DNA from: an uncultured Chlorobiaceae bacterium
GTDB taxonomy: Bacteria; Bacteroidota; Chlorobiia; Chlorobiales; Chlorobiaceae
Direction of reading: 5' to 3'
Assembly: GCA_903882665.1 (NCBI GenBank)
Contig: CAIRXW010000043.1
Location: 1 to 64,000 of the forward strand
Length of the DNA: 64,000 bases
The position numbers and the translations under genes are program-made. Of the stretch, positions 16,497-31,448 are shown piece after piece. Numbering within the stretch: the stretch's first letter is position 1; each line of letters begins with the position of its first letter. The notes beneath the pieces are model-generated. The model was not told where the DNA came from. It made no database searches and was given only the letters and a program-made list of their open reading frames with translations.

Positions 16497-16870
16497 ATGC
16501 ATCAAGAGACGAGGAAGACCCAACTTCCCGGCCTTGATATTTGCATATATTGAAGTATAAAGCTATAGTAATATAAACGTGTCATTGCCACTCAAAGCGA
16601 AAATGACGTTGGTCAATATGCCCAGCTATCACCCTTGACCTCAAACCGGAAAAAAAGTTTTCAATCAGCGAATACCATTTACAAATTTCAGGCGTTTGTT
16701 CTCAATTTGAACGTGCACATATTTTTTAGACCAAAAAAGTAAGACAAAGGTACTGTACCTGGCCTTTCTATCAGTTATGGGGTAAACAAATAAAATGACT
16801 GGTAATGGAATAACGAAAAGCAAAGCGATGAACGGCACAAGCAATGTCATTACTCGTCGAAAAAAATACA
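16497..16870. other. Intergenic region before the gvp regulator
   Basis: 374 bp without a convincing gene. It holds an imperfect inverted repeat (ACGTGTCATT near 16576 with AAATGACGT near 16602) and AT-rich sequence that could carry the regulator's promoter. A short hydrophobic minus-strand frame (ATG 16850 to 16665) has no family resemblance that I can see. Confidence 0.4.
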
Positions 16871-18280
16871 ATGAGAATGGACAATAAAAATATTGGGCAT
16901 ATAAAAGTGCTGATACTTGACGATGAAATTGATTTTACAAATGAGATCAGTGATTATCTTCAAAATTCCGGATTTATTCCTTTTTCTGCAAATACTCCTG
17001 AAGATGGTTATGCCATATTAAGCAAAAACAATATCGATCTGCTTATTCTTGATGTGCGGTTACCAGGTACAAACGGGCTTGAAATTTTAAAAAATGTCAA
17101 GTCACTTTATCCTGACCTGGAGGTCATCATGGTCTCGGCTCATGGCGATATGGACACGGTTATCGATTCCATCAGACTGGGCGCATTTGACTATTTGCGT
17201 AAACCTATGAGATATATAGATATACAGATCGCCATAGAGCGGACACAAAAATACCTTCAAATGCAGCGAAAACTCGCCCGAGCTGAAGAAAAGTACTCAT
17301 TGATATCGTCGGACATAGAGTCAAAAATAGGGCACCATTGTATCGGAAAAAGCAAACAGATTGTTGAAATTTATGAACTTGCAAAAAAAGCGTCACAATA
17401 TCACGACATAAACGTCCTGATAACAGGTGAAAGTGGAACAGGAAAAGAGATATTTGCAAGACTTATTCATTATATGAGCCCGCAAAAAGGAAATTATTTT
17501 GGGGCGATTAATTGCAGTTCAATCAGTGAGTCCCTGATTGAAAGCGAATTTTTTGGTCATAAGAAAGGATCATTTACCGGCGCAATATCAGATAAAAAAG
17601 GATTATTTGAAATATGCAATGAAGGAACACTTTTTCTGGATGAAATCGCTGATATGCCATTTAATCTCCAGTCAAAAATCTTACGTGCCATAGAAGAGCG
17701 GGCCATAACAAGGGTGGGTGATACAAAGCCAATACAGACAAAATTCAGGCTGATTGCTGCAACAAACTGTGATCTGCAGAAAATGGTGGAAGAAAAAAAA
17801 TTCAGACTTGACCTGCTTCACAGACTGAATACTTTCCATATACACATCCCGCCTCTTCGTGAAAGAACAGAAGATATCGGTCCTCTTCTCATTGATTTTA
17901 CAGAAGAGTTTTCGGATAAAATCAATAAACCAATAGAATATATTGCTGATGAGGTATTTGAAACACTCGAGAAATACAGTTTTCCAGGAAATATAAGGGA
18001 ATTGAGAAACCTCGCAGAAAGAGCAATTATACTTTCCAAAGGTAAATCGTTGGAGGTGACCGATTTTCCGTTACCATCCACGGAAAAAAGAATAGAAACA
18101 AGAGATACAGCGGTCAGGAATAATAAAACAAATGAGGCCGAAGAAATAAGGAATGCACTTGAGGAGTGCGAATATAATCAGGTAATAGCAGCAGAAATCC
18201 TTGGAATCAGTCGATATGCTCTCATAAGAAGAATGAAAAAATACAAAATTGATATTGAAAAGAAAGAAATTAACCGATAA
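16871..18280 (+). CDS. NtrC-type sigma-54-dependent response regulator
   Basis: About 469 residues. The receiver domain has LILDDEIDF, the phosphoacceptor region LLILDVRLPGTNG, VSAHG and LRKPM. The AAA+ activator domain has GESGTGKEIFARLIH, ESEFFGHKKGSFTGA, GTLFLDEIADMP and LLHRLNTFHIHIPPLRERTEDI. A Fis-type HTH closes the protein (NQVIAAEILGISRYALIRRMKKY). The sigma-54 contact loop is GSFTGA, with Ser in place of the usual first Ala. No histidine kinase is adjacent, so it is an orphan here. The gene faces the gvp cluster and ends 43 bp from gvpK; a sigma-54 promoter lies at the far end of that cluster, upstream of gvpA. I infer that it controls gas vesicle expression. Confidence 0.9.
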   Translation: MRMDNKNIGHIKVLILDDEIDFTNEISDYLQNSGFIPFSANTPEDGYAILSKNNIDLLILDVRLPGTNGLEILKNVKSLYPDLEVIMVSAHGDMDTVIDSIRLGAFDYLRKPMRYIDIQIAIERTQKYLQMQRKLARAEEKYSLISSDIESKIGHHCIGKSKQIVEIYELAKKASQYHDINVLITGESGTGKEIFARLIHYMSPQKGNYFGAINCSSISESLIESEFFGHKKGSFTGAISDKKGLFEICNEGTLFLDEIADMPFNLQSKILRAIEERAITRVGDTKPIQTKFRLIAATNCDLQKMVEEKKFRLDLLHRLNTFHIHIPPLRERTEDIGPLLIDFTEEFSDKINKPIEYIADEVFETLEKYSFPGNIRELRNLAERAIILSKGKSLEVTDFPLPSTEKRIETRDTAVRNNKTNEAEEIRNALEECEYNQVIAAEILGISRYALIRRMKKYKIDIEKKEINR

Positions 18281-18323: not shown

Positions 18324-18668
18324 TTATAATAAATCACCCAAAGGACCGAGATTAAGGTTAAGGTCTTTATCCGTGAGATTAAATATTTTTTTCAACTCAT
18401 CCATCTTGTTTTCAAGTTTCATGAGAGTTTCTCCAAGATTTTCGATTTGATCTTCTGTCAATGAATCACCTTCAATTCTGCGCATTGCCTGTTTTTCCAT
18501 CAACTTCCGAATCAGTTCAACGAGTGTCAGAACAAGTTTAGCAAGACCGGATTCAACATTTTCAGGGGTTGCATTTATTCGCCCTTGAATGCCGGAATTC
18601 ATTTTTTCAAGTTCTTCTATGATCTCATTTGAAGAACCTGCATAAAACAATACCTTATCATTTTCCAT
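18324..18668 (-). CDS. gvpK: Gas vesicle protein GvpK
   Basis: A 114-residue small accessory protein. The core INATPENVESGLAKLVLTLVELIRKLMEKQAMRRIEGDSLT followed by IENLGETLMKLENKMDELK is typical of GvpK. It is the last gene of the gvp cluster, 2 bp after the upstream GvpF/L gene. GvpK is required for gas vesicle formation in several organisms, but its biochemical role is not established. No terminator is obvious in the 43 bp to the convergent regulator. Confidence 0.93.
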   Translation of the reverse strand: MENDKVLFYAGSSNEIIEELEKMNSGIQGRINATPENVESGLAKLVLTLVELIRKLMEKQAMRRIEGDSLTEDQIENLGETLMKLENKMDELKKIFNLTDKDLNLNLGPLGDLL

Positions 18669-18670
18669 CT

Positions 18671-19417
18671 CTATTCAAGCTTTATTTGAGCAAAATTATA
18701 TGGCGGCCATGGGCCTGTCAAAATCACATTGTATTGGGGATAGATGGATTGGATATGAGCGACCAAAGAAAGAAGTTCGCCTTTTGCTGACCGCTCAATC
18801 AAAAGCACAGCATCGACAATTAACGCAGGTGATAATCTTTTGTTAAAATCGACAAATTCAGTTATCTTTTTAAGATCTTGTGCAACAAAGGAGTGTATTT
18901 TTTCGATGTATTGAAGACGCTTTTCTTCGGCTCTATGCTTTTGGTATTTTTTCAGCAAATAGTTTTTTGTTTCGCTGTCTCCCTGCAGTATACCAGTGAG
19001 CGACTGCGGAACATCACCGCACTCTTCGTTAAAGATAGCAGAGTGATGTTCATGCGAAAACAGGATACGTAATGAATATTCTTCTTTATTCATTATTTTA
19101 TTCAACCCATTACGAATCGACTCGGAATTTTTTTCCAATAAAACAATTACATCAGCAGAGGATGCGACAACTGAGCCATACCTCATGGGAAGAATTGAAT
19201 ATTGAGTCGATATTTTATCAACAATACCAGCATAAGCCAAAACCTCATGCTGATAATCAGCAGGTTTATTTGCAGTTTGCACCGAAACTATAGCCGTTAA
19301 CTCATTGGCAGAAATATATTCAATTTGTACACTTGAGCCTGATGGAAGAACATAAATAGACGACAAGGCATCATTGATTTGTCTTGAATCAAAAACAGCA
19401 TAAACAATTACAGGCAT
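18671..19417 (-). CDS. Gas vesicle protein, GvpF/GvpL family (copy 5)
   Basis: A 248-residue GvpF/L protein. Hallmarks are the N-terminal VIVYAVFDS strand, the SILPMRYGSVVASSADV block and the C-terminal LTGPWPPYNFAQI. GvpF/L proteins bind GvpA monomers and are thought to prevent aggregation and nucleate the wall. It is the most divergent copy in the set and sits between a GvpA/J-type gene and gvpK. Confidence 0.9.
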   Translation of the reverse strand: MPVIVYAVFDSRQINDALSSIYVLPSGSSVQIEYISANELTAIVSVQTANKPADYQHEVLAYAGIVDKISTQYSILPMRYGSVVASSADVIVLLEKNSESIRNGLNKIMNKEEYSLRILFSHEHHSAIFNEECGDVPQSLTGILQGDSETKNYLLKKYQKHRAEEKRLQYIEKIHSFVAQDLKKITEFVDFNKRLSPALIVDAVLLIERSAKGELLSLVAHIQSIYPQYNVILTGPWPPYNFAQIKLE

Positions 19418-19448: not shown

Positions 19449-19640
19449 TCACTTGACAGCCTTTCTTTTTTCCATTGTTTCTACCGAACTCAACAACACC
19501 CTCAGGCCGAGATATACAAGATCGATATCGGCTACTGAAATAACTATATCACCTGTAATGACAACCCCTTTTGTTAAAACACGATCAAGAACATCAAGAA
19601 TGGTGATTTCTTTGTTAATGTCATAAAGGTTTTCTTGCAT
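19449..19640 (-). CDS. gvpS: Small GvpA/J/S-family gas vesicle protein
   Basis: A 63-residue protein with the GvpA-like fold: ITILDVLDRVLTKGVVITGDI followed by VADIDLVYLGLRVLLSSVETM. The LDRVLTKGVVI and DIDLVYLGLRVLL parts match the helix-strand-strand core of GvpA and its minor homologues GvpJ, GvpM and GvpS. Its place between two GvpF/L genes is the usual place of gvpS. It ends 1 bp from the upstream GvpF/L gene. The subtype S versus J/M is tentative. Confidence 0.85.
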   Translation of the reverse strand: MQENLYDINKEITILDVLDRVLTKGVVITGDIVISVADIDLVYLGLRVLLSSVETMEKRKAVK

Positions 19641-19641
19641 A

Positions 19642-20439
19642 TTAATTGGATAGATTTATAAATGAGTATGGAGGCCAAGGGCCTGTAATGTCCAGAATCA
19701 ACCCAATATTTTCGTGTTCAATAATCAAATTATCAGCAAGCTTGATAAACTCATCGATGTTGTCATTTTTTATTAAAAAAGTAGCATTGATAATCATATC
19801 ATCGTTTTGCCCTGATAAATCACCAGGAAGAATGGCATGGAAGCGATATTCTTCAGTCAACTCATTAAGGCGAGTAAATACAAGCCTAGATATATCATTG
19901 TATATCGTATTGATTTCTTTTCCAACAAGATCATTTTTTTGCTTTTTCAGTATATAGGCTTTACCAGGGGTGCTCTGCTTGATTTTAAGATCGATGTCAG
20001 CAATATTCCGGCTAAATACGCCTATGTTTTCGACTATTTTATCTTTATTGCAAAAAACCTTGACAGACCACTCTTCCTTGTTTCGAAGATGGAGCAGTAC
20101 CTCCACAAAATCAGCGCTATAGGAACGGACGAAATCCCTTAAACTCTCTTCCGATTTATAGAGAGTCCCAAAATTGAACGGAATAACCGTATGCATCTGC
20201 ATGATGTCTCCAATCACCTGGAGGTGCTTTCTGACATTTCTATCAAGCCAAGCCTCGTTTGAGAGATTTTTTTTAATATTTATTTCAGAATAATCGCTTT
20301 CTGAAACATATTTCATGGTCACATACAACGTATCAACTTCAAAAGAAAATATACCTTCTTTATGCCATAAGCTTGTGATTAATGGCTTTTCGCTGGTAAT
20401 ACAATAAATATATATGAGTCCATTCTTATCATTACCCAT
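19642..20439 (-). CDS. Gas vesicle protein, GvpF/GvpL family (copy 4)
   Basis: A 265-residue protein with GLIYIYCITS at the N-terminus, HTVIPFNFGTLYKSEESL in the middle and ILDITGPWPPYSFINLSN at the C-terminus, all GvpF/L hallmarks. The central region has an insert rich in Lys and Ile (about residues 140 to 190). It lies 19 bp after gvpO. Codon use is strongly AT-biased. Confidence 0.9.
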   Translation of the reverse strand: MGNDKNGLIYIYCITSEKPLITSLWHKEGIFSFEVDTLYVTMKYVSESDYSEINIKKNLSNEAWLDRNVRKHLQVIGDIMQMHTVIPFNFGTLYKSEESLRDFVRSYSADFVEVLLHLRNKEEWSVKVFCNKDKIVENIGVFSRNIADIDLKIKQSTPGKAYILKKQKNDLVGKEINTIYNDISRLVFTRLNELTEEYRFHAILPGDLSGQNDDMIINATFLIKNDNIDEFIKLADNLIIEHENIGLILDITGPWPPYSFINLSN

Positions 20440-20458: not shown

Positions 20459-20731
20459 TCAATTATTTTCCTGTTCGGATTCATCGTATGTCGAGAGCCT
20501 TGTGAATGACAACACCTCCAATTCAGAATCAATAACGACGGCATAAAACAATCGTATTTTTTTAGGAGGGAGGTTCATGGATTTCAAAAAAGAATCATCT
20601 TCATATACCTCTGCAACAGTTTTCCATGTATCTCCGGATTTTTCTATACGAATGACGGTCACTTCTGTCGTCTTGATATTTTCTTTAAGAAATTTAATTA
20701 CAGCATTTCTTACAGTAATTATTTTACTCAT
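20459..20731 (-). CDS. gvpO: Gas vesicle protein GvpO
   Basis: A 90-residue soluble protein with VTVIRIEKSGDTWKTVAEVYED and LPPKKIRLFYAVVIDSELEVLSFTRLSTY. This matches the GvpO pattern of a short helix followed by a curved beta-sheet (W-x-x-x-VEV-E). GvpO is essential in haloarchaea and may affect gas vesicle expression. About 75 bp of AT-rich sequence separates it from gvpG, the largest gap among the accessory genes. Confidence 0.88.
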   Translation of the reverse strand: MSKIITVRNAVIKFLKENIKTTEVTVIRIEKSGDTWKTVAEVYEDDSFLKSMNLPPKKIRLFYAVVIDSELEVLSFTRLSTYDESEQENN

Positions 20732-20806: not shown

Positions 20807-21079
20807 TCATTGATTTTGCTTCTCCAATCTTATTCTTTCAAGTTTTTTCAACAGCTCATCCTCTTGCTTGTCATATTCTTCCTCATCAATTTCATCCAGC
20901 TCAAACCTGAGCTGAAGTGCCATAAGTCGTTCTTTAACAGTACCTTCATCTGATGTCTCTTTCTCTACAACATCATTGATTTTTTCAGCAATAAATATAA
21001 GACCGTTTAATGGCGCAAATAATATGTCATCGATTATAAAAATATCAGCCTCCTTTGGTATTAATCGAAAGATTGACAA
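20807..21079 (-). CDS. gvpG: Gas vesicle protein GvpG
   Basis: A 90-residue protein. The N-terminus IIDDILFAPLNGLIFIAEKIND is the GvpG signature, followed by an acidic, coiled-coil C-terminal half (LRFELDEIDEEEYDKQEDELL). About 15 extra residues precede the conserved start. The reading frame overlaps the 3' end of the upstream GvpF/L gene by 35 bp, which suggests translational coupling. GvpG usually works with GvpF and GvpL in early assembly. Confidence 0.92.
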   Translation of the reverse strand: MSIFRLIPKEADIFIIDDILFAPLNGLIFIAEKINDVVEKETSDEGTVKERLMALQLRFELDEIDEEEYDKQEDELLKKLERIRLEKQNQ

Positions 21080-21836
21080 AGTTATATGGCGGGAGCGTGC
21101 CTACATATTTGAACGTCATAATATCTCCGTATTTTTTGTCAAGCTCATTAACAGCCTCATCAAATTGTGGTTCTTTAACCTCCTTGATAAGAAAAGCTGC
21201 ATTTAAAATCATAAGATTACCATAATTATCAGTGATCTTGACATCATCAGCAATCGGGTTCAATAGATCAAGAATCTGTTTTTTATGGTTATCAATTTCT
21301 GTCTTCAAAGCATCCTCAACCATTTCACCTATCTTTACTCGTTGATAGTGAATTTTATCAGGTGGCTGGTTCAACAGCTTCTCTCTAAGCATTCTTATAC
21401 TATCATATTTCTGTATAATATTTTCATATATTTTCGATTCATCAGCAACAACTTTAAGCCCAAGTTCCTTTTTCCCCTTCATTTTATCAAGCAAATCATC
21501 TAGTCTGCGATAATCCTCAGTAAGGATACGAATTATTGCATCATCATCATCATGAGGTGAAATCGTAGAAAATCTTACCGGAAGAACATTAAACCGCGTC
21601 ATTACCTCTTCAAGCACTTTTTGATGGGCAATCATATTGGCCCGTCTTGCCTGATATTGAATATCCGGCGATGAGCTTACAATGGCACAAATATCTTTAT
21701 AAGTAACTCCGTACACATGATCATTCCTGCTGCCAATTCCAATAGGGCCAAAATCAATTTTTTCGGAATTTCTTATTATTCCGTATATATATCTGCCTTC
21801 TTTTGCATTATCACTATCCATGTCGTTAAGTATCAT
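21045..21836 (-). CDS. Gas vesicle protein, GvpF/GvpL family (copy 3)
   Basis: A 263-residue protein with GRYIYGIIRNSEKIDFGPIGIG, AHQKVLEEVMTRFNVLPVRFSTIS, NAAFLIKEV and YVGTLPPYNFVNLSI. It follows the common GvpF/L layout and is close to copy 2 in the N-terminal FGPIGIGSR pattern, so these two probably arose by duplication. It lies 9 bp after copy 2 and overlaps gvpG. Confidence 0.92.
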   Translation of the reverse strand: MILNDMDSDNAKEGRYIYGIIRNSEKIDFGPIGIGSRNDHVYGVTYKDICAIVSSSPDIQYQARRANMIAHQKVLEEVMTRFNVLPVRFSTISPHDDDDAIIRILTEDYRRLDDLLDKMKGKKELGLKVVADESKIYENIIQKYDSIRMLREKLLNQPPDKIHYQRVKIGEMVEDALKTEIDNHKKQILDLLNPIADDVKITDNYGNLMILNAAFLIKEVKEPQFDEAVNELDKKYGDIMTFKYVGTLPPYNFVNLSINTKGG

Positions 21837-21845
21837 TTTTTGATT

Positions 21846-22619
21846 TTAGAGTTCCCATTTTTCAGGGAGAATTCGCAAGTCTATAAAGTTAAAGATTGGC
21901 AGCGGACCCGTATAATAAAAGTCACTTCTCTCCTTAAATCTTTCTCCAAGATCAGTCATAACATTATCAAATTCAACTTCGCGACCTTTGTTGAGCAAAA
22001 AAGCGGTATTCATAAACAGAGCCTCCCCTGTTGTTTTGTTATGCTTATACGCGACAACTGTCTTGCGAAAAGTTGTTACAACTTCTTCAGCCTCAACTTC
22101 TTTCTTTTTTTGCAACGCCTCTTCTATTATATGGCCAGCCTCAACAATGAATGTTTTTCTATTTTCTTCATCAATTGATTTTTCTATTTTACTTCTAAGT
22201 TTTTTCAGGCCCGAATTTTCTTTATCAATCTCTTTATAAATATCAGCCATATTTCTCCAGGAGGCTTTAAGATTATATTCAACCTTGTTTTCAAAGCGCT
22301 CAAGCAGTTCGGATAATTCGCTGTATCGCCTGTCAAGGAGATTCCTGATCTCATCAGGTGTTGCCGCAACAGTACCAAACCTGACCGGAATGACACTGTT
22401 GAATTGAGTCATCACCACCTCAATTACTTTTTGATGAGCAAGAATATTTTCAGGATTTAATACAAAGTGATCCAGAGGGTGATCACTCACCACCATGCTT
22501 AATCCCTGAAATCCAATGGTACTTACCAAATCACCTCTTCCACCGATTCCAACAGGTCCAAAATTGCACTCATAACTTGTTGCAATTATACAATAGACAT
22601 ATTTACCATCTTTTTGCAT
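21846..22619 (-). CDS. gvpF: Gas vesicle protein, GvpF/GvpL family (copy 2)
   Basis: A 257-residue protein with GKYVYCIIATSYECNFGPVGIG, AHQKVIEVVMTQFNSVIPVRFGTVA, NTAFLLNKG and YYTGPLPIFNFIDL. Of the five copies this one has the most standard GvpF features. Gas vesicle GvpF binds GvpA and is found on the gas-facing side in cyanobacteria. It begins 1 bp after the stop of the J-domain fusion gene. Confidence 0.92.
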   Translation of the reverse strand: MQKDGKYVYCIIATSYECNFGPVGIGGRGDLVSTIGFQGLSMVVSDHPLDHFVLNPENILAHQKVIEVVMTQFNSVIPVRFGTVAATPDEIRNLLDRRYSELSELLERFENKVEYNLKASWRNMADIYKEIDKENSGLKKLRSKIEKSIDEENRKTFIVEAGHIIEEALQKKKEVEAEEVVTTFRKTVVAYKHNKTTGEALFMNTAFLLNKGREVEFDNVMTDLGERFKERSDFYYTGPLPIFNFIDLRILPEKWEL

Positions 22620-22620
22620 A

Positions 22621-23640
22621 TTATTTCTTTATTTTGACCAGGTATAAAGGTTCAACCATTACCGTATCAGGCGACTGTTTAATGGCATGTAAATACTCAA
22701 GCAATATTTTGTATGCATGGTTAATTTTTATAAATCCGTCAGTACTATCTTGTGGACTTTCGCTGTTTTTGTCAGGGTGCGTTAATCCTGCATTCATGCG
22801 ATACGCTCTCTTAAGACTACCCTCTGTCAGAGCAACGTCAATCCCAAGCACTTCTTTGGCTTTTTCTATATCATCCTTATCAAGTACTTTACATTCAATA
22901 GTATAAAAACTATAGCATGGCAATGGCCCAACTATCTTAAAGTTCAACTGATCAGCATATTTTATGTCAAGCTGATCAATCGAATCCATATAACGTTCTT
23001 TATTTTCTTTTTTTACAAGAAAAGCGCAATTTACAGGCATCTCATCATTCATCGTCTCATGCTTTTTAGCAGCAAAGCAATAAGGCATCAATGAATTAAT
23101 CACATCACTATTGACTTTATTGTTTTTTTCATCAATCTTTTTCTTGATCAATTTCCCTATATTGATGCTATCGGCCTGTTCATACGTATTTTTTTTTGCT
23201 ATCTCTTCCTTCATAAGTCTGATTGCTGACGTATCAGATATGCGTCTGATAAAATCGGGAAAATCATTCCAGACAGCCACTACATCAAATTCCTCAACCT
23301 TAGCGATAACGTTAAAAACATCATTGATAACAGCAAATCCATGTTTCAATATCTTAATGACATCATTTCCTGAACTCACTATGGTGCCGAGTTGAACCGG
23401 AATAACTTCCGAGCATCCACTGCTCATCATCTTTTCAAGTTTTCTTTGATGATCAACAAGAAGATATGCAAGAGCCTCCCTGTCAAGATATTCAAGTTTT
23501 TCATCCCTTGTATCTGACACGACTGCAGAAATACCTTTATATTCTATCGAGTAGATTCCGGATTCAAGCATAAGATCCCTCACAGCATCAAAACAATGAG
23601 TGGGAACAAATCCGTATAAATAAATACCCTGCTTATTCAT
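22621..23640 (-). CDS. GvpF/GvpL protein fused to a C-terminal DnaJ J-domain
   Basis: A 339-residue fusion. Residues 1 to about 250 are GvpF/L: GIYLYGFVPTHCFDAVRD, SEVIPVQLGTIVSSGNDVI, NCAFLVKKEN and VGPLPCYSFYTIE. Residues about 255 to 325 form a J-domain. A helix II-like GSLKRAYRMNAGLT leads into the invariant HPD (residues 288-290), and helix III follows (GFIKINHAYKILLEYL). J-domains stimulate Hsp70 ATPase through HPD, so this protein could recruit DnaK to GvpA-bound GvpF/L. The frame is continuous and no sign of frameshift exists. It sits between the Cdc48-type gene and GvpF/L copy 2, 6 bp and 1 bp away. Confidence 0.88.
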   Translation of the reverse strand: MNKQGIYLYGFVPTHCFDAVRDLMLESGIYSIEYKGISAVVSDTRDEKLEYLDREALAYLLVDHQRKLEKMMSSGCSEVIPVQLGTIVSSGNDVIKILKHGFAVINDVFNVIAKVEEFDVVAVWNDFPDFIRRISDTSAIRLMKEEIAKKNTYEQADSINIGKLIKKKIDEKNNKVNSDVINSLMPYCFAAKKHETMNDEMPVNCAFLVKKENKERYMDSIDQLDIKYADQLNFKIVGPLPCYSFYTIECKVLDKDDIEKAKEVLGIDVALTEGSLKRAYRMNAGLTHPDKNSESPQDSTDGFIKINHAYKILLEYLHAIKQSPDTVMVEPLYLVKIKK

Positions 23641-23646
23641 TAACTG

Positions 23647-25794
23647 CTAATTTATTATATTTTCATTTTGATGGATGACGACTTCTATTGCCTCTTCAAA
23701 ATGTTTTTCCGTAACAAGAATTTCCGCCGTATCGGAAGCCTCTTTATTATCAATTATTTCGCGAATAGCGCACATTTTTGCCTTTTGACAAATAAACTGT
23801 ATGTCTGCCCCTGTCATACGTTCTGTTTTTCCGGCTAAAAGAGTCAAGCTCACACCACTTTCCAGAGGCATATTTTTTGTATGGATTTTAAATATTTTCT
23901 CTCTGGTACTTAACTCAGGTAATGGAACTTCAAACATAAGATCAAATCTTCCTGAACGTAATAATGCAGGATCAATGATATCGATCCGATTTGTTGCAGC
24001 TAGCACCGTGACACCTTTCAACTCTTCAATACCATCCATTTCAGTAAGAAATTGACTGATCACTCGTTCAATTACCCCGGATTCTGTACCATCATTTCTT
24101 CTGCGTGGTGTAAGACTGTCTATTTCATCAAGGAAAAGAATTGTCGGCGCTGATTGTTTGGCAAGTCTGAAAAGTTCCCGTACCCCTTTTTCAGATTCGC
24201 CAATAAAACGGCTAAGTAGTTGCGGCCCCTTGACTGAAATAAAATTCACACCACTCTCACTGGCAAGTGCTTTTGCAAGGTATGTCTTGCCTGTTCCTGG
24301 CTTTCCATACAATATTATCCCTTTAGGTGGTTTGGTATCTGTTTTTTTAAAGAGTTCTGCATACTTGACAGGCCACTCGACACTCTCTTTTAATGCCTGC
24401 TTGATCTCTTCAAGCCCTCCGACATCTTCCCACTTGACATCAGGGACCTCTACAAATACTTCACGGATGGCAGAGGGCTCAACCTCTTTCATTGCGTCAA
24501 GAAAATTATCCATCGTGACTTCCAATTGCATCAAAAGCTCGTAAGGAATCTCCGATAATTCAAAATTAATCTGCGGAAGAATTTTTCTTAACGCCGTCAT
24601 GGCCGCCTCCCGTGCAAGGGCTTCAAGATCAGCCCCGACAAAGCCATGAGTAATATCGGCAATTTTAGTCATATCCACATCTTCTGACAGAGGAATCCCC
24701 CTTGTATGGATATGAAGAATTTCAAGGCGTCCTTTCTTGTCAGGAATTGAAATCGATAGTTCACGATCAAAACGGCCTGGTCTTCTCAGGGCAGGATCAA
24801 TAGAATTAGGTATATTTGTTGCCCCAATGACAATCACCTTGCCTCTTGACTCCAATCCATCCATCAACGATAAAAGCTGTGCAACAACCCTCTTCTCCAC
24901 CTGTTTTTCGCCGCCCATATCCTCCCGTTTGGGAGCGATTGCATCTATTTCATCAATAAAAATAATTGATGGCGCATGCGACTGGGCTTCAGCAAATATA
25001 TTGCGCACCCTTGCTTCACTTTCACCATAATACTTGCCCATAATTTCAGGGCCTGATATATTTATAAAATATGCATCCGTCTCCTGAGCCACCGCTCTTA
25101 CAATAAGTGTTTTACCAGTACCCGGAGGGCCATAGAGAAAAACACCTTTTGGAGGTTCAACTCCCAGTCTTTCAAATATTTCAGGGTATTTAAGGGGCAG
25201 TTCAATCATTTCTCGTATTCGTTGAACCTGATTACCAAGTCCCCCTATATCTTCATACGTGACCTTATTTGATTTTACTTCATTTTGTTTGGTCAACTCA
25301 ACCTGAATAGAAGTATCCGGATGGATAAGAACCACTCCATCAGGAGTCGTCGAAGTTATGGTGTAGTATATTGAGCCGGACCCGAAAAGAGTCGCCTTGA
25401 TTTTATCACCCTTGGTAACAGGCAAGCCATTGATAAGCGAACCTATATATTTGGCATCATCAGCTTTTATCAGTGAACTTGACTTTGTTACCGGTTTAAG
25501 CTTGATTTTTGTGGCTTGACGGAAGGTAACTTTATTGATCAATACTTTTTCATCGATACCAACTCCAGCATTCTCCCTGGTAATACCGTCAATCTGTATG
25601 ATCCCCTTATCTCTGTCATCCGGATAGGAAGGAAGTATTTTGACCGGAGTAGAGCGCTTACCCCCGATCATGACAATGTCACCAGAATCCAACCCAGTGC
25701 GAGCCATATCATGAGGATCAATCCTTGCAATTGCTCGTCCTACATCCTTGACAATAGCTTCTTTTACCTTGAGTACCAACTCATCATTACTCAT
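23647..25794 (-). CDS. Cdc48/VAT-type AAA+ ATPase in gas vesicle cluster
   Basis: A 715-residue protein with the full architecture of archaeal VAT / eukaryotic Cdc48 (p97). An N-domain of about 170 residues has ARIDPHDMARTGLDSGDIV, like the double-psi barrel. D1 has GPPGTGKTLIVRAVA, IIFIDEIDAIAPKRE and ALRRPGRFDRELSI. D2 has GKPGTGKTYLAKALA, ILFLDEIDSLTPRRR and LLRSGRFDLMFEVPLP. Both Walker A and B sets and both Arg-finger regions are intact; the D2 P-loop has Lys for the usual first Pro. The C-terminus (NENIIN) lacks an HbYX proteasome motif. Such proteins unfold or extract client proteins. It overlaps the ArsA-like gene by 4 bp, so it belongs to the gvp transcript. The family is uncommon in Bacteria. 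Confidence 0.93.
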   Translation of the reverse strand: MSNDELVLKVKEAIVKDVGRAIARIDPHDMARTGLDSGDIVMIGGKRSTPVKILPSYPDDRDKGIIQIDGITRENAGVGIDEKVLINKVTFRQATKIKLKPVTKSSSLIKADDAKYIGSLINGLPVTKGDKIKATLFGSGSIYYTITSTTPDGVVLIHPDTSIQVELTKQNEVKSNKVTYEDIGGLGNQVQRIREMIELPLKYPEIFERLGVEPPKGVFLYGPPGTGKTLIVRAVAQETDAYFINISGPEIMGKYYGESEARVRNIFAEAQSHAPSIIFIDEIDAIAPKREDMGGEKQVEKRVVAQLLSLMDGLESRGKVIVIGATNIPNSIDPALRRPGRFDRELSISIPDKKGRLEILHIHTRGIPLSEDVDMTKIADITHGFVGADLEALAREAAMTALRKILPQINFELSEIPYELLMQLEVTMDNFLDAMKEVEPSAIREVFVEVPDVKWEDVGGLEEIKQALKESVEWPVKYAELFKKTDTKPPKGIILYGKPGTGKTYLAKALASESGVNFISVKGPQLLSRFIGESEKGVRELFRLAKQSAPTILFLDEIDSLTPRRRNDGTESGVIERVISQFLTEMDGIEELKGVTVLAATNRIDIIDPALLRSGRFDLMFEVPLPELSTREKIFKIHTKNMPLESGVSLTLLAGKTERMTGADIQFICQKAKMCAIREIIDNKEASDTAEILVTEKHFEEAIEVVIHQNENIIN

Positions 25795-26756
25795 TTTACC
25801 TCTCTGTTTAGCTCTTTATGTTCATCAAAGAGCACCTGCATTAATGTCTTCAAAGCCGTCACCCCTTTGATTTCATCAGGAAAAAGAGGGACAATTACTA
25901 CCTGTAATTCGTTAAACAGCTCATGAACCTTATCAATATACTTACGTTGGGCGGCCTTTCTTTGTCGGCAAAACCCGGATTCGTCTGACTCCATGACATT
26001 ATTGAGAATCAATTGGTGTGATGAAATCCTGAAGTTCCTGAGTTCTTTTAAAAGCCTCTGCGTTTCCATAATAGCCATGTCCTCAGGAATACAGACCGGA
26101 ATAAATTCGCATTTCTCACTATTACCCAAGAGAACTGCTATACGTTTGACGGTCTTTTTCAGATTAAGCAACATAACATCTGCTTCATCATCCTTGTATT
26201 CACCAGAAAAAGACTCAATCATATAACGATACTTCCACCTCATTTTTGCAGCCATCTTGATCCACTCATCCAAAAGTACCGGAGAGGACAAAAGACGCAA
26301 TGCATGTCCGGTTGGTGCCGTATCTACCACATATTTTTCGTAATTATTCTCTTCAATCAGGTCGATAATGGTTTTGAAGCTCATAACCTCATCAATACCG
26401 GGTATTGAGAGACTCATCATTTGCTGAATATCTTCGTCATCAAAATTTGTGGATGTATCAAAGAGTTTAATGAGTTCAGCTTCATGCTCTTTTTTAAAAT
26501 CCTGAAATGCTTTATCTGCAGAAATCTCTATAGCGGTGAGGTTGGCAACGTTTCGAACAGGTTGAAGTCTGAACCCAATCTCTTGCTCGAGACTGTCAGA
26601 AATTGAGTGCGCCGGGTCTGTTGAAATTACCAGTGTCTTGAATTTTCGGGCCAACCCTATAGCGCAAGCCACAGCACAACTGGTCTTGCCAACTCCACCC
26701 TTACCGCCAAATATAACCATCTTAAGGTCTTTGCACTCCAAACCTGTCAGCGGCAT
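25791..26756 (-). CDS. ArsA/Get3-like ATPase in gas vesicle cluster
   Basis: A 321-residue single-domain P-loop ATPase. FGGKGGVGKTSCAVACAIGLA (about residues 16-36) is the deviant Walker A with the intersubunit Lys. STDPAHSISDSL is switch I, and DTAPTGHALRLL is switch II. The late motif SGFCRQRKAAQRKYI corresponds to the Get3/ArsA CxxC region, but the first Cys is replaced by Ser, so the zinc-bridged dimer of Get3 is unlikely. Get3 shields hydrophobic tail-anchored proteins and ArsA drives arsenite export. No arsenic genes are nearby, so a role in handling hydrophobic Gvp proteins is inferred. It overlaps the Cdc48-type gene by 4 bp and follows gvpH by 4 bp. Confidence 0.88.
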   Translation of the reverse strand: MPLTGLECKDLKMVIFGGKGGVGKTSCAVACAIGLARKFKTLVISTDPAHSISDSLEQEIGFRLQPVRNVANLTAIEISADKAFQDFKKEHEAELIKLFDTSTNFDDEDIQQMMSLSIPGIDEVMSFKTIIDLIEENNYEKYVVDTAPTGHALRLLSSPVLLDEWIKMAAKMRWKYRYMIESFSGEYKDDEADVMLLNLKKTVKRIAVLLGNSEKCEFIPVCIPEDMAIMETQRLLKELRNFRISSHQLILNNVMESDESGFCRQRKAAQRKYIDKVHELFNELQVVIVPLFPDEIKGVTALKTLMQVLFDEHKELNREVK

Positions 26757-26760
26757 TGTA

Positions 26761-27285
26761 TCATTTTTTAATTCTTATTTCAAGGATACCGTTTATGTAT
26801 TTTTGTTGAATCGAACTCGTATCAGATTTAATCGGCAATAACAATTCCTTGCGGTAACTCTTTTTCATACTTTTCGTCGATATCTCAAGAATGTCATCTT
26901 TAAGATCAATAATAATATCCGACTCTTCAATGCCAGGCATTTCTGCAATTATGACAACTTCATCATCCTCATCAAACACATCAGTTATAGGTTCACGTTC
27001 CTCGTTGACCATGGGGCCTTTAGCTGTTTTAACTATGTTTCCGAAAGTCTCAACCTTTGGAGAACCTCCGACTGCTGATTTAATGGTAAATCCATAAACG
27101 CCTTTCATTCCTTTTTTCAACTGATCAAAATTGAGCTCTCCTTCGCGACTTACCGCTCCAGCCTGCTCAAGCTTACCTGCTAAATCGACCAATTTTTCAA
27201 TTCCCTTAAAAAGACCTCCCAAGCCAAGAAAATCGAACTCAGATTCTGATTCCCCTTTTCTGTTACTATCTTTTTCATATTTCAT
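26761..27285 (-). CDS. gvpH: Gas vesicle protein GvpH (Hsp20-like)
   Basis: A 174-residue protein. The N-terminal half is charged and contains FDFLGLGGLFKGIEKLVDLAGKLEQ. The C-terminal half is an alpha-crystallin/Hsp20-like sandwich: DEVVIIAEMPGIEESDIIIDLKDDILEI and LLLPIKSD...NGILEIRIKK. GvpH proteins of this type are small-heat-shock-like; in haloarchaea GvpH has been linked to control of gas vesicle gene expression and binding of Gvp proteins. It sits between gvpJ and the ArsA-like gene. Confidence 0.9.
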   Translation of the reverse strand: MKYEKDSNRKGESESEFDFLGLGGLFKGIEKLVDLAGKLEQAGAVSREGELNFDQLKKGMKGVYGFTIKSAVGGSPKVETFGNIVKTAKGPMVNEEREPITDVFDEDDEVVIIAEMPGIEESDIIIDLKDDILEISTKSMKKSYRKELLLPIKSDTSSIQQKYINGILEIRIKK

Positions 27286-27298
27286 GGTATACCCCCAC

Positions 27299-27598
27299 CT
27301 ATGTTGTTTTTGTCATCGCTTCCAGTTTCTCTACACGCTGCTGTAAATCATCCCGTAAAATCTGCTGTTCTTTGTCTTTGGCTTTCGTAGAAAGATATGG
27401 ATCTTCCTGCCACCAGTTTATACCCATCTCCATGGCCTTGTCAACTGATGCAATCAAAAGCCTTATCTTAATGGTCAACAAGTCTATATCGGCAATCTGT
27501 ATTTTTATATCTCCTGCAATTACAATACCTTTATCAAGAACCCTTTCGAGTATGTCCGCAAGACCAGTCGCATTAACAGCATGTTTTAATTCTGCCAT
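27299..27598 (-). CDS. gvpJ: Gas vesicle protein GvpJ
   Basis: A 99-residue GvpA homologue. GLADILERVLDKGIVIAGDIKIQIADIDLLTIKIRLLIASVDKA is the GvpA/J core, and it is followed by a 45-residue charged C-terminal tail (WWQEDPYLSTKAKDKEQQI), as in GvpJ. GvpJ is a minor wall component believed to form the conical tips. It lies 12 bp after the GvpV-like gene and 13 bp before gvpH. Confidence 0.9.
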   Translation of the reverse strand: MAELKHAVNATGLADILERVLDKGIVIAGDIKIQIADIDLLTIKIRLLIASVDKAMEMGINWWQEDPYLSTKAKDKEQQILRDDLQQRVEKLEAMTKTT

Positions 27599-27610
27599 GG
27601 TACAATAAAT

Positions 27611-27916
27611 TTAGTACTCTATTTGGATAGTTGTAAATCCAGGCTCTGAGTTTACCTCACCGTAATGGCGATTATTCTGATGATGAAGTAAATGAGAACT
27701 ATGCTCATAAATATTCTCGATAATTCTTAACCTGTTCTGGACATAATCAAGCCGGCATAATATTTTCGACTCTTCAGCCATTAACCGCTGTTTCTCCTTT
27801 TCAAGCATATACAACTCAAGAAAATCCGCAGTATCATTTTTCTTAATAGATGCCTTGGTAACGGTATGGAGAGTCTTGATATGACTGACACCCCTTTTAG
27901 GATTCATGATCGGCAT
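27611..27916 (-). CDS. Small basic coiled-coil protein, possibly GvpV-like
   Basis: A 101-residue protein that I do not recognise with certainty. It has an N-terminal basic segment (PKRGVSHIKTLHTVTKASIKK) followed by a helical, charged stretch (FLELYMLEKEKQRLMAEESK and RLDYVQNRLRIIENIYEHS) that should form a coiled coil. The layout recalls cyanobacterial GvpV, which also has an Arg/Ile-rich start and an LE-x-EK-x-R helix; this is an impression, not a demonstrated homology. It is tightly packed between gvpN (29 bp) and gvpJ (12 bp), so a gas vesicle role is likely. Confidence 0.6.
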   Translation of the reverse strand: MPIMNPKRGVSHIKTLHTVTKASIKKNDTADFLELYMLEKEKQRLMAEESKILCRLDYVQNRLRIIENIYEHSSHLLHHQNNRHYGEVNSEPGFTTIQIEY

Positions 27917-27945: not shown

Positions 27946-28872
27946 CTATGAGTACAAGTCAATAAGCTCATTTACAATACCACGTACCCTCTCCTGATTT
28001 GTTTTGGATCCAACCCTGCTCGTCTCCGAAGTTAAAATATCCTGACAGACTCTTTTAAACATATCATTTGACTTGTCCGGCCTTGCTCCAAGAACATTCA
28101 ATGTTTTCGCTATCATGATCGAACCCCGGATGGTAGGGTCAAACTCGGTTTTTCCCGATTCACGCAACCCGCGGACAATTTTAACAATTATTTCGGCATC
28201 ATCAAGTGACATTCCTGATTTTGCATGAGTGATCATAAGCTCCGTCTCGTAATCAAAATAATCAAGATCCATGGTAACCATTCTGTCACGCAGTGCATCC
28301 TGGGTTCTGTTTACACCGGCATACTCCTCTGGATTCGAGGTAAATATCGCCCTGAATTCGGGATGAACCTTCATATAGTACTCTTCTTCATTTGATGATG
28401 AGGTGCTCAACATTTTTTCCTGAAGAATAGGAAGAAGGATATTGTTTGCTTCAGGACGCGAACGGGTAAATTCGTCATACACCAGGGTAAACCCTTTCTT
28501 GATTGCAATGGTAAGTCGATTGTTTACCCACTGCTTGGTCATGTCCTCTTCATACTTGTGAACAGAATGAATAAAATTGTCATCAAGCCTTCTGTATTTA
28601 TAACCCTGCTCACTTCCAATAAGATCAGATGTTTTGTATTCTGAATCGCCATGAATAATGACAACCGGTCGACCGATCTGGCTTGCAAGATGCAACGCGA
28701 CCGTCGTTTTCCCGGTGCCGGAGGGGCCCCTGAAATGAACGGGAAAGCCCGCTTTCATGTAGGTCAGACCACGGTTGGTTATATCCCTGATGTAGTCTGT
28801 CTCGACAAAATTTGGCATGGGCTTCGGCTCAAGCACTGTATTCATCTCATTATCATTTCCCTGGCGACGCAT
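27946..28872 (-). CDS. gvpN: Gas vesicle AAA+ ATPase GvpN
   Basis: A protein of about 300-308 residues of the MoxR/NorQ-like AAA+ class. FRGPSGTGKTTVALHLASQIGRP is Walker A, GFTLVYDEFTRSRPEANNILLPILQE is Walker B and sensor region, and FRAIFTSNPEEYAGVN...ALRDRMVTMDLDYFD is the conserved GvpN block. GvpN with GvpC supports growth of gas vesicles to full width. The frame starts at 28872; ATG 28845 (MNTVLEP) is an alternative start preceded by AGGGA. An 18-bp stem-loop lies upstream, between gvpN and the gvpC-like gene. Confidence 0.95.
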   Translation of the reverse strand: MRRQGNDNEMNTVLEPKPMPNFVETDYIRDITNRGLTYMKAGFPVHFRGPSGTGKTTVALHLASQIGRPVVIIHGDSEYKTSDLIGSEQGYKYRRLDDNFIHSVHKYEEDMTKQWVNNRLTIAIKKGFTLVYDEFTRSRPEANNILLPILQEKMLSTSSSNEEEYYMKVHPEFRAIFTSNPEEYAGVNRTQDALRDRMVTMDLDYFDYETELMITHAKSGMSLDDAEIIVKIVRGLRESGKTEFDPTIRGSIMIAKTLNVLGARPDKSNDMFKRVCQDILTSETSRVGSKTNQERVRGIVNELIDLYS

Positions 28873-28992: not shown

Positions 28993-30162
28993 TTACTTAA
29001 TATTCTTCTTCGCTGGGTAGTAAAGATTTTCTACTTTTGAAACTTTCCCTGCATCCAGCAGACATTTTGCAGCAAAACCAATCTTCATCCTGGTTTCATG
29101 TAAAGGTTCTTCCATATCAGAAACCTTGACACCTTCATGATGACTATTGATGTACTGGAAAATTTTGTCTTCCAAAGTGATTTCATCGTGTACTGCTGGC
29201 GGCTCAATAGTGACAACCGGTGCCTTTTCCACAAAAACAGGCAACACTTTAATAACAGCAGGAGCTGGTTCAGCTTTTACTTCATGTTTTTCAACCGCTT
29301 TTTCCTCCATTTTTGGAGCGGCAACCTGCTCTCCACTCCTGATCGCCGCGATCTCTTCCTGCATTTTACTCCAATGCTCAGCTCCCTGTGATCTGTCTTT
29401 GGAATAACTGCCAAGCAGGCTCGAAGTGGATTTTCTCAACTCTGCAACTTCACTGCTGATCCGGTCAAACAACGCGTTATACTCCTTCAGCCTGTCTGCC
29501 TCACCATGGTTTAAATCATTTCTCAGCTCACGGGCAGCATTGAGATTTTCGTTACTGATCTCTGCAATTCTTTCCTGAATACTCTTCAGCAATGCATGGG
29601 TATACTCAAATCGTTCATTTCTTGTTTTGCTCAGCTCCGCCCTGAGCTCCTCCGTCATCTCCTTATGTTCACTGCCAAACTTTTCAAGCATTTCGTTTGT
29701 ATAATTGAAAATACTTGATACTTCATCACTTATTTTTCCAATGTACACCTCATACTCCGCCATTCTCGACTGCTCATTCTGTGTGCGTGACTTATTTTCT
29801 TCAGAGAAAAATTTGTCCAAATCACTTGCCAGCACCTTTCTTGCCTTCGAAAACTCTTTGATCAATGCGTTCGTTGACGACTTTGAACCCTTAACTTCCT
29901 TTTCGATGCCTTTGATATCTTTCTGTATGGAGCCAATCAACTGTCCATATTTGCTTATCCGCTCTTTTTCACCCGCAGCAAGATTACTCTTTAATTCAGC
30001 AGCATTCGCATTCAAGGTTGCGGCTGTATTTTCCTGCTCATGACGATACTGTTTCAGTTTGTTCTCAACAGTAGCAACAAGCTCCTGATTATCCCTGACG
30101 CGCCCTTTAAATGAAGAAAGCATCTCTTCACTCAAGCTTTTCATTTCATTAGCCAGTCCCAT
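28993..30162 (-). CDS. gvpC: GvpC-like coiled-coil repeat protein
   Basis: A 389-residue, mostly helical protein. Residues about 45 to 260 contain four degenerate repeats of roughly 40 to 60 residues with the theme A-E-L-x-x-x-L-x-x-G-E-x-x-R-x-x-x-Y (examples GEKERISKYGQLIGSIQKDI and GEADRLKEYNALFDRISSEV). That is the style of GvpC, the protein that wraps and stiffens gas vesicles. A Pro/Ala/Glu/Val-rich linker (about 295-325) follows, and the last 60 residues (ITLEDKIFQYINSHHEG to YYPAKK) look like a winged-helix fold. This C-terminal domain is not part of cyanobacterial GvpC. The gene is upstream of gvpN, the standard gvpC-gvpN order. Subfamily identity is an inference. Confidence 0.72.
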   Translation of the reverse strand: MGLANEMKSLSEEMLSSFKGRVRDNQELVATVENKLKQYRHEQENTAATLNANAAELKSNLAAGEKERISKYGQLIGSIQKDIKGIEKEVKGSKSSTNALIKEFSKARKVLASDLDKFFSEENKSRTQNEQSRMAEYEVYIGKISDEVSSIFNYTNEMLEKFGSEHKEMTEELRAELSKTRNERFEYTHALLKSIQERIAEISNENLNAARELRNDLNHGEADRLKEYNALFDRISSEVAELRKSTSSLLGSYSKDRSQGAEHWSKMQEEIAAIRSGEQVAAPKMEEKAVEKHEVKAEPAPAVIKVLPVFVEKAPVVTIEPPAVHDEITLEDKIFQYINSHHEGVKVSDMEEPLHETRMKIGFAAKCLLDAGKVSKVENLYYPAKKNIK

Positions 30163-30199: not shown

Positions 30200-30802
30200 T
30201 TATTTGCTGATAATATATTTAGCATTTTTGATATCCCTGATACTGATATTATCGCCTTTTTCAAGTAATGATTCAAGATATACCATCACCTCTTTATGCA
30301 TTTCCTGAAAATCTGTCAATATTTTTATAACCGTCTCTTTTCTTTTTTCCTGTATCTCCGCAATTTGAGCCAGTTCTTCTTTCAGCAAGACATTTTTATC
30401 CGGAGAATCCGCTGCACAATAATCAGAAATATTTACTATTATATTTTTTAACGACTGGGTAAACTCCTTCTGGTCTTCTATAAAAGCAATAAAATGGTTT
30501 TTTGCATTGCGCTCTTTTTCATCAAGTAAACTATAGATATCACTCATGATGATATTATAATCTTTTTTTCGCAACGACTCTTTTTTTGCCAGTGCTTCAC
30601 AGAGTTTTGAACTTACATCATTCCGCCTCTCCTTCAGATATTCCAGGGAATGCTCAACACTGTCAACCAAAAAATGACACGACTCTTTAATATTCTCGGA
30701 ACTCTGGAACGCATTCTGAATTTTTTTTATCCTGATATCTTCTGAGTCACCGATATCTTCAGAAACAACCTTTTCCATAACTACCTCTTCTCTGATATCC
30801 AT
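30200..30802 (-). CDS. Gas-vesicle-cluster coiled-coil protein, unknown family
   Basis: A 200-residue acidic, helical protein (for example CHFLVDSVEHSLEYLKERR and LLKEELAQIAEIQEKRKETV). The last 25 residues (GDNISIRDIKNAKYIISK) look like a small beta/helix end. I do not recognise a family. It lies between gvpA and the gvpC-like gene, 37 bp from the latter, with an imperfect hairpin and an AT-rich gap of about 175 bp after gvpA. By position it could be a second GvpC-like shell protein or a regulator of wall strength. The ribosome site before ATG 30802 is weak; other ATGs follow at 30778 (MEKVV). Confidence 0.6.
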   Translation of the reverse strand: MDIREEVVMEKVVSEDIGDSEDIRIKKIQNAFQSSENIKESCHFLVDSVEHSLEYLKERRNDVSSKLCEALAKKESLRKKDYNIIMSDIYSLLDEKERNAKNHFIAFIEDQKEFTQSLKNIIVNISDYCAADSPDKNVLLKEELAQIAEIQEKRKETVIKILTDFQEMHKEVMVYLESLLEKGDNISIRDIKNAKYIISK

Positions 30803-30978: not shown

Positions 30979-31185
30979 TTATGCTGCCTTTGCAGTCAGG
31001 CCGATTGCTTCAGCATACTTCAGGTAGGTCTCTACAGAGGCAACGACGACCCTTGCTTCGATAGCAAGAAGTTCGATACCGACAAGTGATACCCTTACCC
31101 ATGCATCGACAACGACGCCCTTGTCAAGGATACGATCAATAACCTCTACGAGGCTTGACGAGCCGATTGTTTTCTCTACTGCCAT
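30979..31185 (-). CDS. gvpA: Gas vesicle major structural protein GvpA (copy 2)
   Basis: A 68-residue hydrophobic wall protein, [20 protein letters not shown] at the start, with [20 protein letters not shown] in the centre and an AKAA C-terminus. GvpA forms the ribbed, water-excluding shell. The protein is identical to that of the upstream copy; the nucleotide sequences differ only at a handful of synonymous positions. The ribosome site GGAG (in CCGGAGATTTATC) precedes the ATG in both copies. Confidence 0.97.
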
Positions 31186-31241
31186 GATAAATCTCCGGTT
31201 GTTTGTTTAAAAAAATGACACTTCATTCTGCAAAATCTCGC

Positions 31242-31448
31242 TTACGCTGCCTTTGCAGTCAAACCGATTGCTTCAGCATACTTCAGGTAGGTCTCTACAG
31301 AGGCAACGACGACCCTTGCTTCGATAGCAAGAAGTTCGATACCGACAAGTGATACCCTTACCCATGCGTCTACAACCACACCCTTGTCAAGGATACGGTC
31401 AATAACCTCTACGAGGCTTGACGAGCCGATTGTTTTCTCTACTGCCAT
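31242..31448 (-). CDS. gvpA: Gas vesicle major structural protein GvpA (copy 1)
   Basis: The promoter-proximal of two tandem genes for an identical 68-residue GvpA. The frame is open further upstream to 31541, but ATG 31448 with GGAG eight bases before it matches copy 2 and the family length. It lies 56 bp before copy 2 and about 75 bp after a sigma-54 promoter. Two copies give a high dose of the wall protein. Confidence 0.97.

Follow-up and report, generated by a model that had tools for sequence, protein, structure and literature searches.

A GvpF protein fused to a J-domain in gas-vesicle clusters of Chlorobiaceae and its probable link to DnaK

A gene joining a GvpL/GvpF domain to a C-terminal J-domain, designated here as gvpF-J, was found on the minus strand (22621..23640) of the window, which is the whole 64,000-nucleotide stretch analysed from an uncultured Chlorobiaceae bacterium, and is delimited by its open reading frame, Pfam matches, conservation and structure. 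Comparison of homologous sequences indicates that the fusion and its J-domain are conserved and under purifying selection, and the protein is probably a gas-vesicle-dedicated J-domain protein of class C-like organization, whose GvpF part would hold hydrophobic shell-type proteins and whose J-domain would recruit DnaK to them. The gene is a single uninterrupted open reading frame of 339 codons with an ATG start, while the plus strand across 22621-23640 is full of stops; the coordinates and length given by an earlier sequence-only reading were right, with the gene on the minus strand.

Both halves of the fusion claimed in that reading exceed the curated Pfam cut-offs. Residues 5-246 (22903..23628, minus strand) match GvpL_GvpF (PF06386) with E=3.3e-43 and 148.9 bits (cut-off 23.6), and residues 263-313 match DnaJ (PF00226) with E=2.9e-10 and 40.5 bits (cut-off 27.8). 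When the protein was compared with the PDB by phmmer, its first part retrieved the two solved GvpF proteins and its second part many J-domains. Helices I-III of the J-domain cover residues 255-322 (22675..22878, minus strand), as supported by Pfam, predicted helices and PDB J-domain matches; the HPD motif, which is invariant in all intact homologues, occupies residues 288-290 (22771..22779, minus strand), exactly the residues named before; and the last approximately nine residues form a conserved C-terminal tail, PLYLVKIK (22627..22653, minus strand), recognized from the alignment. When 60 genomes were searched with a profile built from the fused J-regions, almost every one yielded ordinary DnaJ proteins, in most cases at E-values of about 1e-11 to 1e-14. 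The J-domain match is not due to chance, since this profile recovers ordinary DnaJ proteins, H, P and D are among the few invariant columns, and the fused frame recurs without stops. The protein belongs to the GvpL/GvpF family by its Pfam score, its GvpF fold and its setting in a gas-vesicle cluster, and to the J-domain proteins by its Pfam score, the HPD between helices II and III and the helical hairpin fold. The layout of DnaJ classes A and B is absent, as the J-domain at 255-322 follows the GvpF domain instead of standing at the N-terminus with a G/F region, and no Pfam match to DnaJ_C or the zinc finger was obtained in gvpF-J.

The AlphaFold2 model of full-length gvpF-J, built with 17 homologues, reached a mean pLDDT of 88 and a pTM of 0.79 and contains the J-domain helical hairpin for which the sequence-only reading had proposed a structure prediction. 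J-domain helices are predicted at residues 255-265, 273-287 and 296-322, with the HPD loop between the second and the third, and a short beta strand is predicted at 332-337 in the conserved tail. The GvpF core of the model matches PDB 6l5d_B with a target-normalised TM score of 0.80 and 4qsg with 0.74, while over 53 columns its J-part deviates from the J-domain 2dmx by 1.5 angstrom. Folded alone, the J-part was modelled with moderate confidence (pLDDT 73); its best PDB matches were all J-domains, and its superposition on 5nro_B, the J-domain of DnaJ bound to DnaK, covers 53 columns at 1.3 angstrom. As Foldseek E-values are weak for so small a domain, the J-fold is assigned from probability, superposition and sequence jointly.

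The suspicion voiced earlier, that such a fusion might exist in other gvp clusters, proved apt when GvpF proteins with a C-terminal DnaJ domain were searched for. A scan of genome contigs disclosed eight fusion loci, most of them in MAGs named Chlorobiaceae, with 59-76% full-length identity and the HPD in all. In a search that covered 394 genomes from the phylum and 97 from the class, 16 of the 86 that belong to Chlorobiaceae (family f1) contained the fusion with no stops in frame, although contig ends split it in G028; G083, which represents a second family of the order, and G019, whose family is more remote within the phylum, also carry it. In the alphaproteobacterium Octadecabacter arcticus, a plasmid encodes a further fused protein, WP_015497776.1, which has 360 amino acids and an intact HPD, passes both Pfam cut-offs (DnaJ only narrowly, 28.0 against 27.8) and bears in RefSeq only the name 'GvpL/GvpF family'. 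No relative was detected in the viral contigs searched, nor, at E<=1e-20, in 397 genomes of family f15 of the phylum, where the search contained no known positive. The gvpF-J on a contig from a bin named Bacteroidia (L007) is identical to the one in a Chlorobiaceae bin (L006), and the contig was probably misbinned.

The relationship of the fused proteins was assessed in a GvpF/L tree of 55 proteins, eight of them fused, which was calculated from the GvpF part alone with 200 bootstrap trees. The GvpF cores of the eight fused proteins constitute one clade with support of 99/96, recovered in all 200 bootstrap trees. The fusion is therefore old and probably of single origin; its spread is best explained by one such event with subsequent descent and transfer. 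The fused clade falls in a group with a Nostoc GvpF and paralogues c and d of the window, a grouping that depends on the root. Many gvp clusters of the tree set are devoid of any fused J-domain, which is therefore not essential to gas vesicles in general.

The cluster around gvpF-J, encoded throughout on the minus strand, holds five GvpF/L proteins with gvpF-J included. In the order of transcription, its first half consists of GvpN (27946..28872), an AAA ATPase that matches PF07728 at E=1e-19 and aligns with the annotated Octadecabacter gvpN, an uncharacterised protein, a GvpJ/GvpA-family protein (27299..27598; PF00741, E=5e-17), a GvpH-like small heat-shock protein of the Hsp20 type (26761..27285; PF00011, E=1e-6), a single-domain ATPase of the Get3/ArsA family (25791..26756; TIGR00345, 250 bits, cut-off 135, with PDB Get3 matches), a Cdc48/p97-type AAA ATPase directly upstream of gvpF-J (23647..25794; TIGR01243, 934 bits, cut-off 803) and gvpF-J itself. 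It is followed by the unfused GvpL/GvpF paralogues d (21846..22619; Pfam E=1.1e-56) and c (21045..21836; E=7.5e-64), GvpG (20807..21079; PF05120, E=1.2e-20), a GvpO-like protein (20459..20731) whose PF05800 match of E=2.3e-4 is below the cut-off and which takes the same position in homologous clusters, paralogue b (19642..20439; Pfam E=1.1e-46), a small GvpA/GvpJ-family shell-type protein of 63 amino acids (19449..19640; PF00741, E=3e-16), paralogue a (18671..19417; Pfam E=1.6e-36) and GvpK (18324..18668; PF05121, E=1.1e-35). Two tandem gvpA genes with identical 68-amino-acid products (30979-31185 and 31242-31448, together 30979..31448), recognized as open reading frames matching PF00741, lie on the same strand. 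Three conserved proteins of the gvp cluster (27611-27916, 28993-30162 and 30200-30802) match no Pfam family over the cut-off; the second resembles a coiled coil, shows weak similarity to apolipoproteins and may be a GvpC counterpart. A sigma-54-dependent response regulator encoded directly beside the cluster on the opposite strand (16844-18280, plus) is a candidate regulator of it.

This gene order is shared by G071, G079 and G197, whose clusters are complete, by G083 and, with small losses, by G019; Cdc48 was next to gvpF-J in the Chlorobiales clusters compared and in G019. Within Chlorobiaceae, Cdc48 accompanies the fusion in 15 of 16 genomes and occurs in none of the 70 that lack it; in the remaining fusion genome, G358, gvpF-J is situated near a contig end. 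The Octadecabacter cluster combines the fusion with Hsp20, and its annotated stretch has neither Get3 nor Cdc48 alongside. Family f3 possesses small gvp clusters without the fusion and has Cdc48 elsewhere in the genome, and one of its members, G129, assembles Cdc48, Hsp20, Get3 and GvpN in one locus from which the fusion is absent. A strict linkage of Cdc48 and Get3 with the fusion was consequently rejected on the grounds of f3, with Cdc48 but no fusion, and Octadecabacter, with the fusion but neither ATPase nearby. Near the G129 locus, a 276-codon frame (L074:14104-14931) contains a J-domain-like HPD stretch. Its presence beside Cdc48 is probably a coincidence, because it lies on the opposite strand and was not found in four other f3 genomes, and the idea that a standalone J-protein replaces the fusion in f3 was discarded.

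Structurally, residues 4-246 of gvpF-J adopt the same fold as the solved GvpF proteins of Microcystis and Anabaena (4qsg, 6l5d), and the genomic setting is like that of the studied GvpF proteins (Halobacterium, Bacillus and the solved ones), whereas the approximately 90 extra C-terminal residues, comprising the J-domain and the conserved tail, are missing from the solved GvpF and the unfused GvpF/L proteins compared. Like class C J-domain proteins, gvpF-J unites in one chain an HPD-containing J-domain of three (predicted) helices and a client-specific domain; in contrast with DnaJ, its J-domain is C-terminal and accompanied by a GvpF client domain, with no G/F region, zinc finger or DnaJ C-terminal domains. 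A study of 2010 described gvp clusters containing arsA and hsp20 from Pelodictyon luteolum, Polaribacter irgensii and others (PMC2963123), and these share with the present one the set of gvpN, F/L copies, G, J and K; the gas-vesicle ArsA homologues of that work are two-domain, in contrast to the single-domain ATPase here (25791-26756), and neither DnaJ nor a J-domain is mentioned there.

The Halobacterium GvpF is the only protein that binds GvpA strongly and is thought to keep it soluble or aid assembly (PMC9501494), and the Bacillus GvpF is the primary partner of GvpA2, is displaced by GvpG and has been proposed as a GvpA2 chaperone (PMC11445434). In J-domains, the HPD docks at the Hsp70 linker and triggers hydrolysis (PMC8054193). 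Taken together, these properties would allow gvpF-J to guide DnaK to a client that its GvpF part has bound. Following the studied GvpF proteins, the GvpF domain would bind a hydrophobic shell-type protein (GvpA/GvpJ-like) soon after its synthesis, and the HPD loop, judged from the intact J-domain, would dock on ATP-bound DnaK and trigger hydrolysis, upon which DnaK would close around either this client itself or its complex with GvpF. DnaK and GrpE would then keep the client soluble or release it from GvpF, and the client would be passed to GvpG and the growing vesicle, presumably in that order. The source genome harbors one complete DnaK, and GrpE is encoded beside DnaJ, all of them away from the gvp cluster; since there is only this one complete DnaK, the partners would be the housekeeping set of the cell. 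The sequence-only reading had gone further in asserting a direct physical link between the GvpA-binding protein and Hsp70. The analysis confirms the fusion and the intact J-domain, both of them conserved, and the link is their best reading, in which GvpA binding is taken over from other GvpF proteins and DnaK stimulation from the intactness of the J-domain.

It was considered whether the joined frame is an artefact of assembly or annotation, in which a chance read-through connects two genes. The same stop-free fused frame in 16 Chlorobiaceae genomes, two further families and a plasmid, the single clade and the low dN/dS (about 0.20 for the J-region and 0.13 for the GvpF part) render this explanation extremely improbable, and it was rejected on account of the recurrence and the single clade. 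It could also be supposed that the J-domain is degenerate and serves as a structural or protein-binding module, for instance by holding another Gvp, with no action on DnaK. Certain J-domain residues (R27, R36 and N37 of DnaJ) help DnaJ bind DnaK. With the helix II columns that we equate, by our own numbering, with R22, Y25 and K26 of E. coli DnaJ, the R22 and K26 positions are occupied by K/R and R/K/H in all 14 sequences and the Y25 position stays aromatic, while on the same numbering the R27 position is mostly non-basic and the R36 and N37 positions after the HPD vary. The drift of the residues flanking the HPD and of part of helix II, together with the somewhat faster evolution of the J-region than of the GvpF part, speaks for degeneration. 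Against it, among 13-14 homologues with identities down to 24-25% in the J-region, H, P and D are three of the 6-7 invariant columns, an outcome with a chance probability of about 2e-4 to 3e-4, and the HPD is invariant in every intact copy, YPD being seen only in a relic (L025/L058). In this relic of G056 (L058:8175-9296), only a fragment of Cdc48 is left, and the gvpF-J that comes after it is truncated and reads YPD instead of HPD; no gvp gene was found in its surroundings besides these two remnants, and loss of the HPD and truncation of the frame coincide with loss of the gvp cluster in this single case. A J-domain inert towards DnaK is accordingly regarded as unlikely.

A more elaborate proposal places gvpF-J at the head of a dedicated transfer chain encoded in its neighbourhood, in which the J-domain would load GvpA onto DnaK, the Get3-family ATPase would accept the hydrophobic client, much as Get3 receives tail-anchored proteins once Hsp70 and J-proteins have acted, and Cdc48 and Hsp20 would handle misassembled client. 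It draws on the order Hsp20-Get3-Cdc48-gvpF-J, which the complete Chlorobiales clusters compared and that of G019 have in common, on the distribution of Cdc48 over Chlorobiaceae genomes, on the Get3-family membership of the cluster ATPase, and on the precedent of yeast, where J-proteins help tail-anchored clients to pass from Hsp70 to Sgt2, a step upstream of Get3 (PMC8054193). The likeness to the GET pathway resides in a J-domain protein and a Get3-family ATPase in a cluster devoted to a small hydrophobic protein; in contrast to that pathway (PMC8054193), no Sgt2-like middleman was seen here, gas vesicles are not membranes, and Get3 does not always accompany the J-fusion, as in Octadecabacter, where Cdc48 is not alongside either. 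It likewise tells against the chain that f3 has Cdc48 while lacking the fusion, and that in G129 this Cdc48 shares one locus with Hsp20, Get3 and GvpN. The chain is consequently held to be doubtful. That such a dedicated Hsp70-to-Get3 relay, running from gvpF-J via DnaK to Get3 with Cdc48 and Hsp20 clearing failures, builds gas vesicles in some bacteria appears improbable; if true, it would represent a GET-like targeting chain serving a protein-only organelle instead of a membrane.

Recruitment of DnaK by gvpF-J, the preferred reading, bears on the question of how the very hydrophobic GvpA stays soluble and reaches the vesicle. The GvpF and J-domain families are each known, and no description of their joining was found in the open literature searched: no gas-vesicle or DnaJ paper screened by title and abstract joins GvpF with a J-domain, and no paper retrieved links gas vesicles with Get3. 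Automatic domain databases may already list the architecture. The interaction study of 2024 in which GvpF was proposed as a GvpA chaperone placed host proteins outside its scope and does not mention Hsp70/DnaK (PMC11445434). The natural fusion supplies genetic evidence that the GvpF step works with Hsp70 in at least one gas-vesicle lineage, and it offers a one-residue test of the GvpF-Hsp70 link, the change of HPD to QPD. It also suggests that more DnaK capacity, or this GvpF-J, be tried in the expression of gas vesicles for imaging. For the biology of these bacteria, the fusion suggests that vesicle assembly directly enlists the general protein-folding machinery (DnaK/Hsp70).
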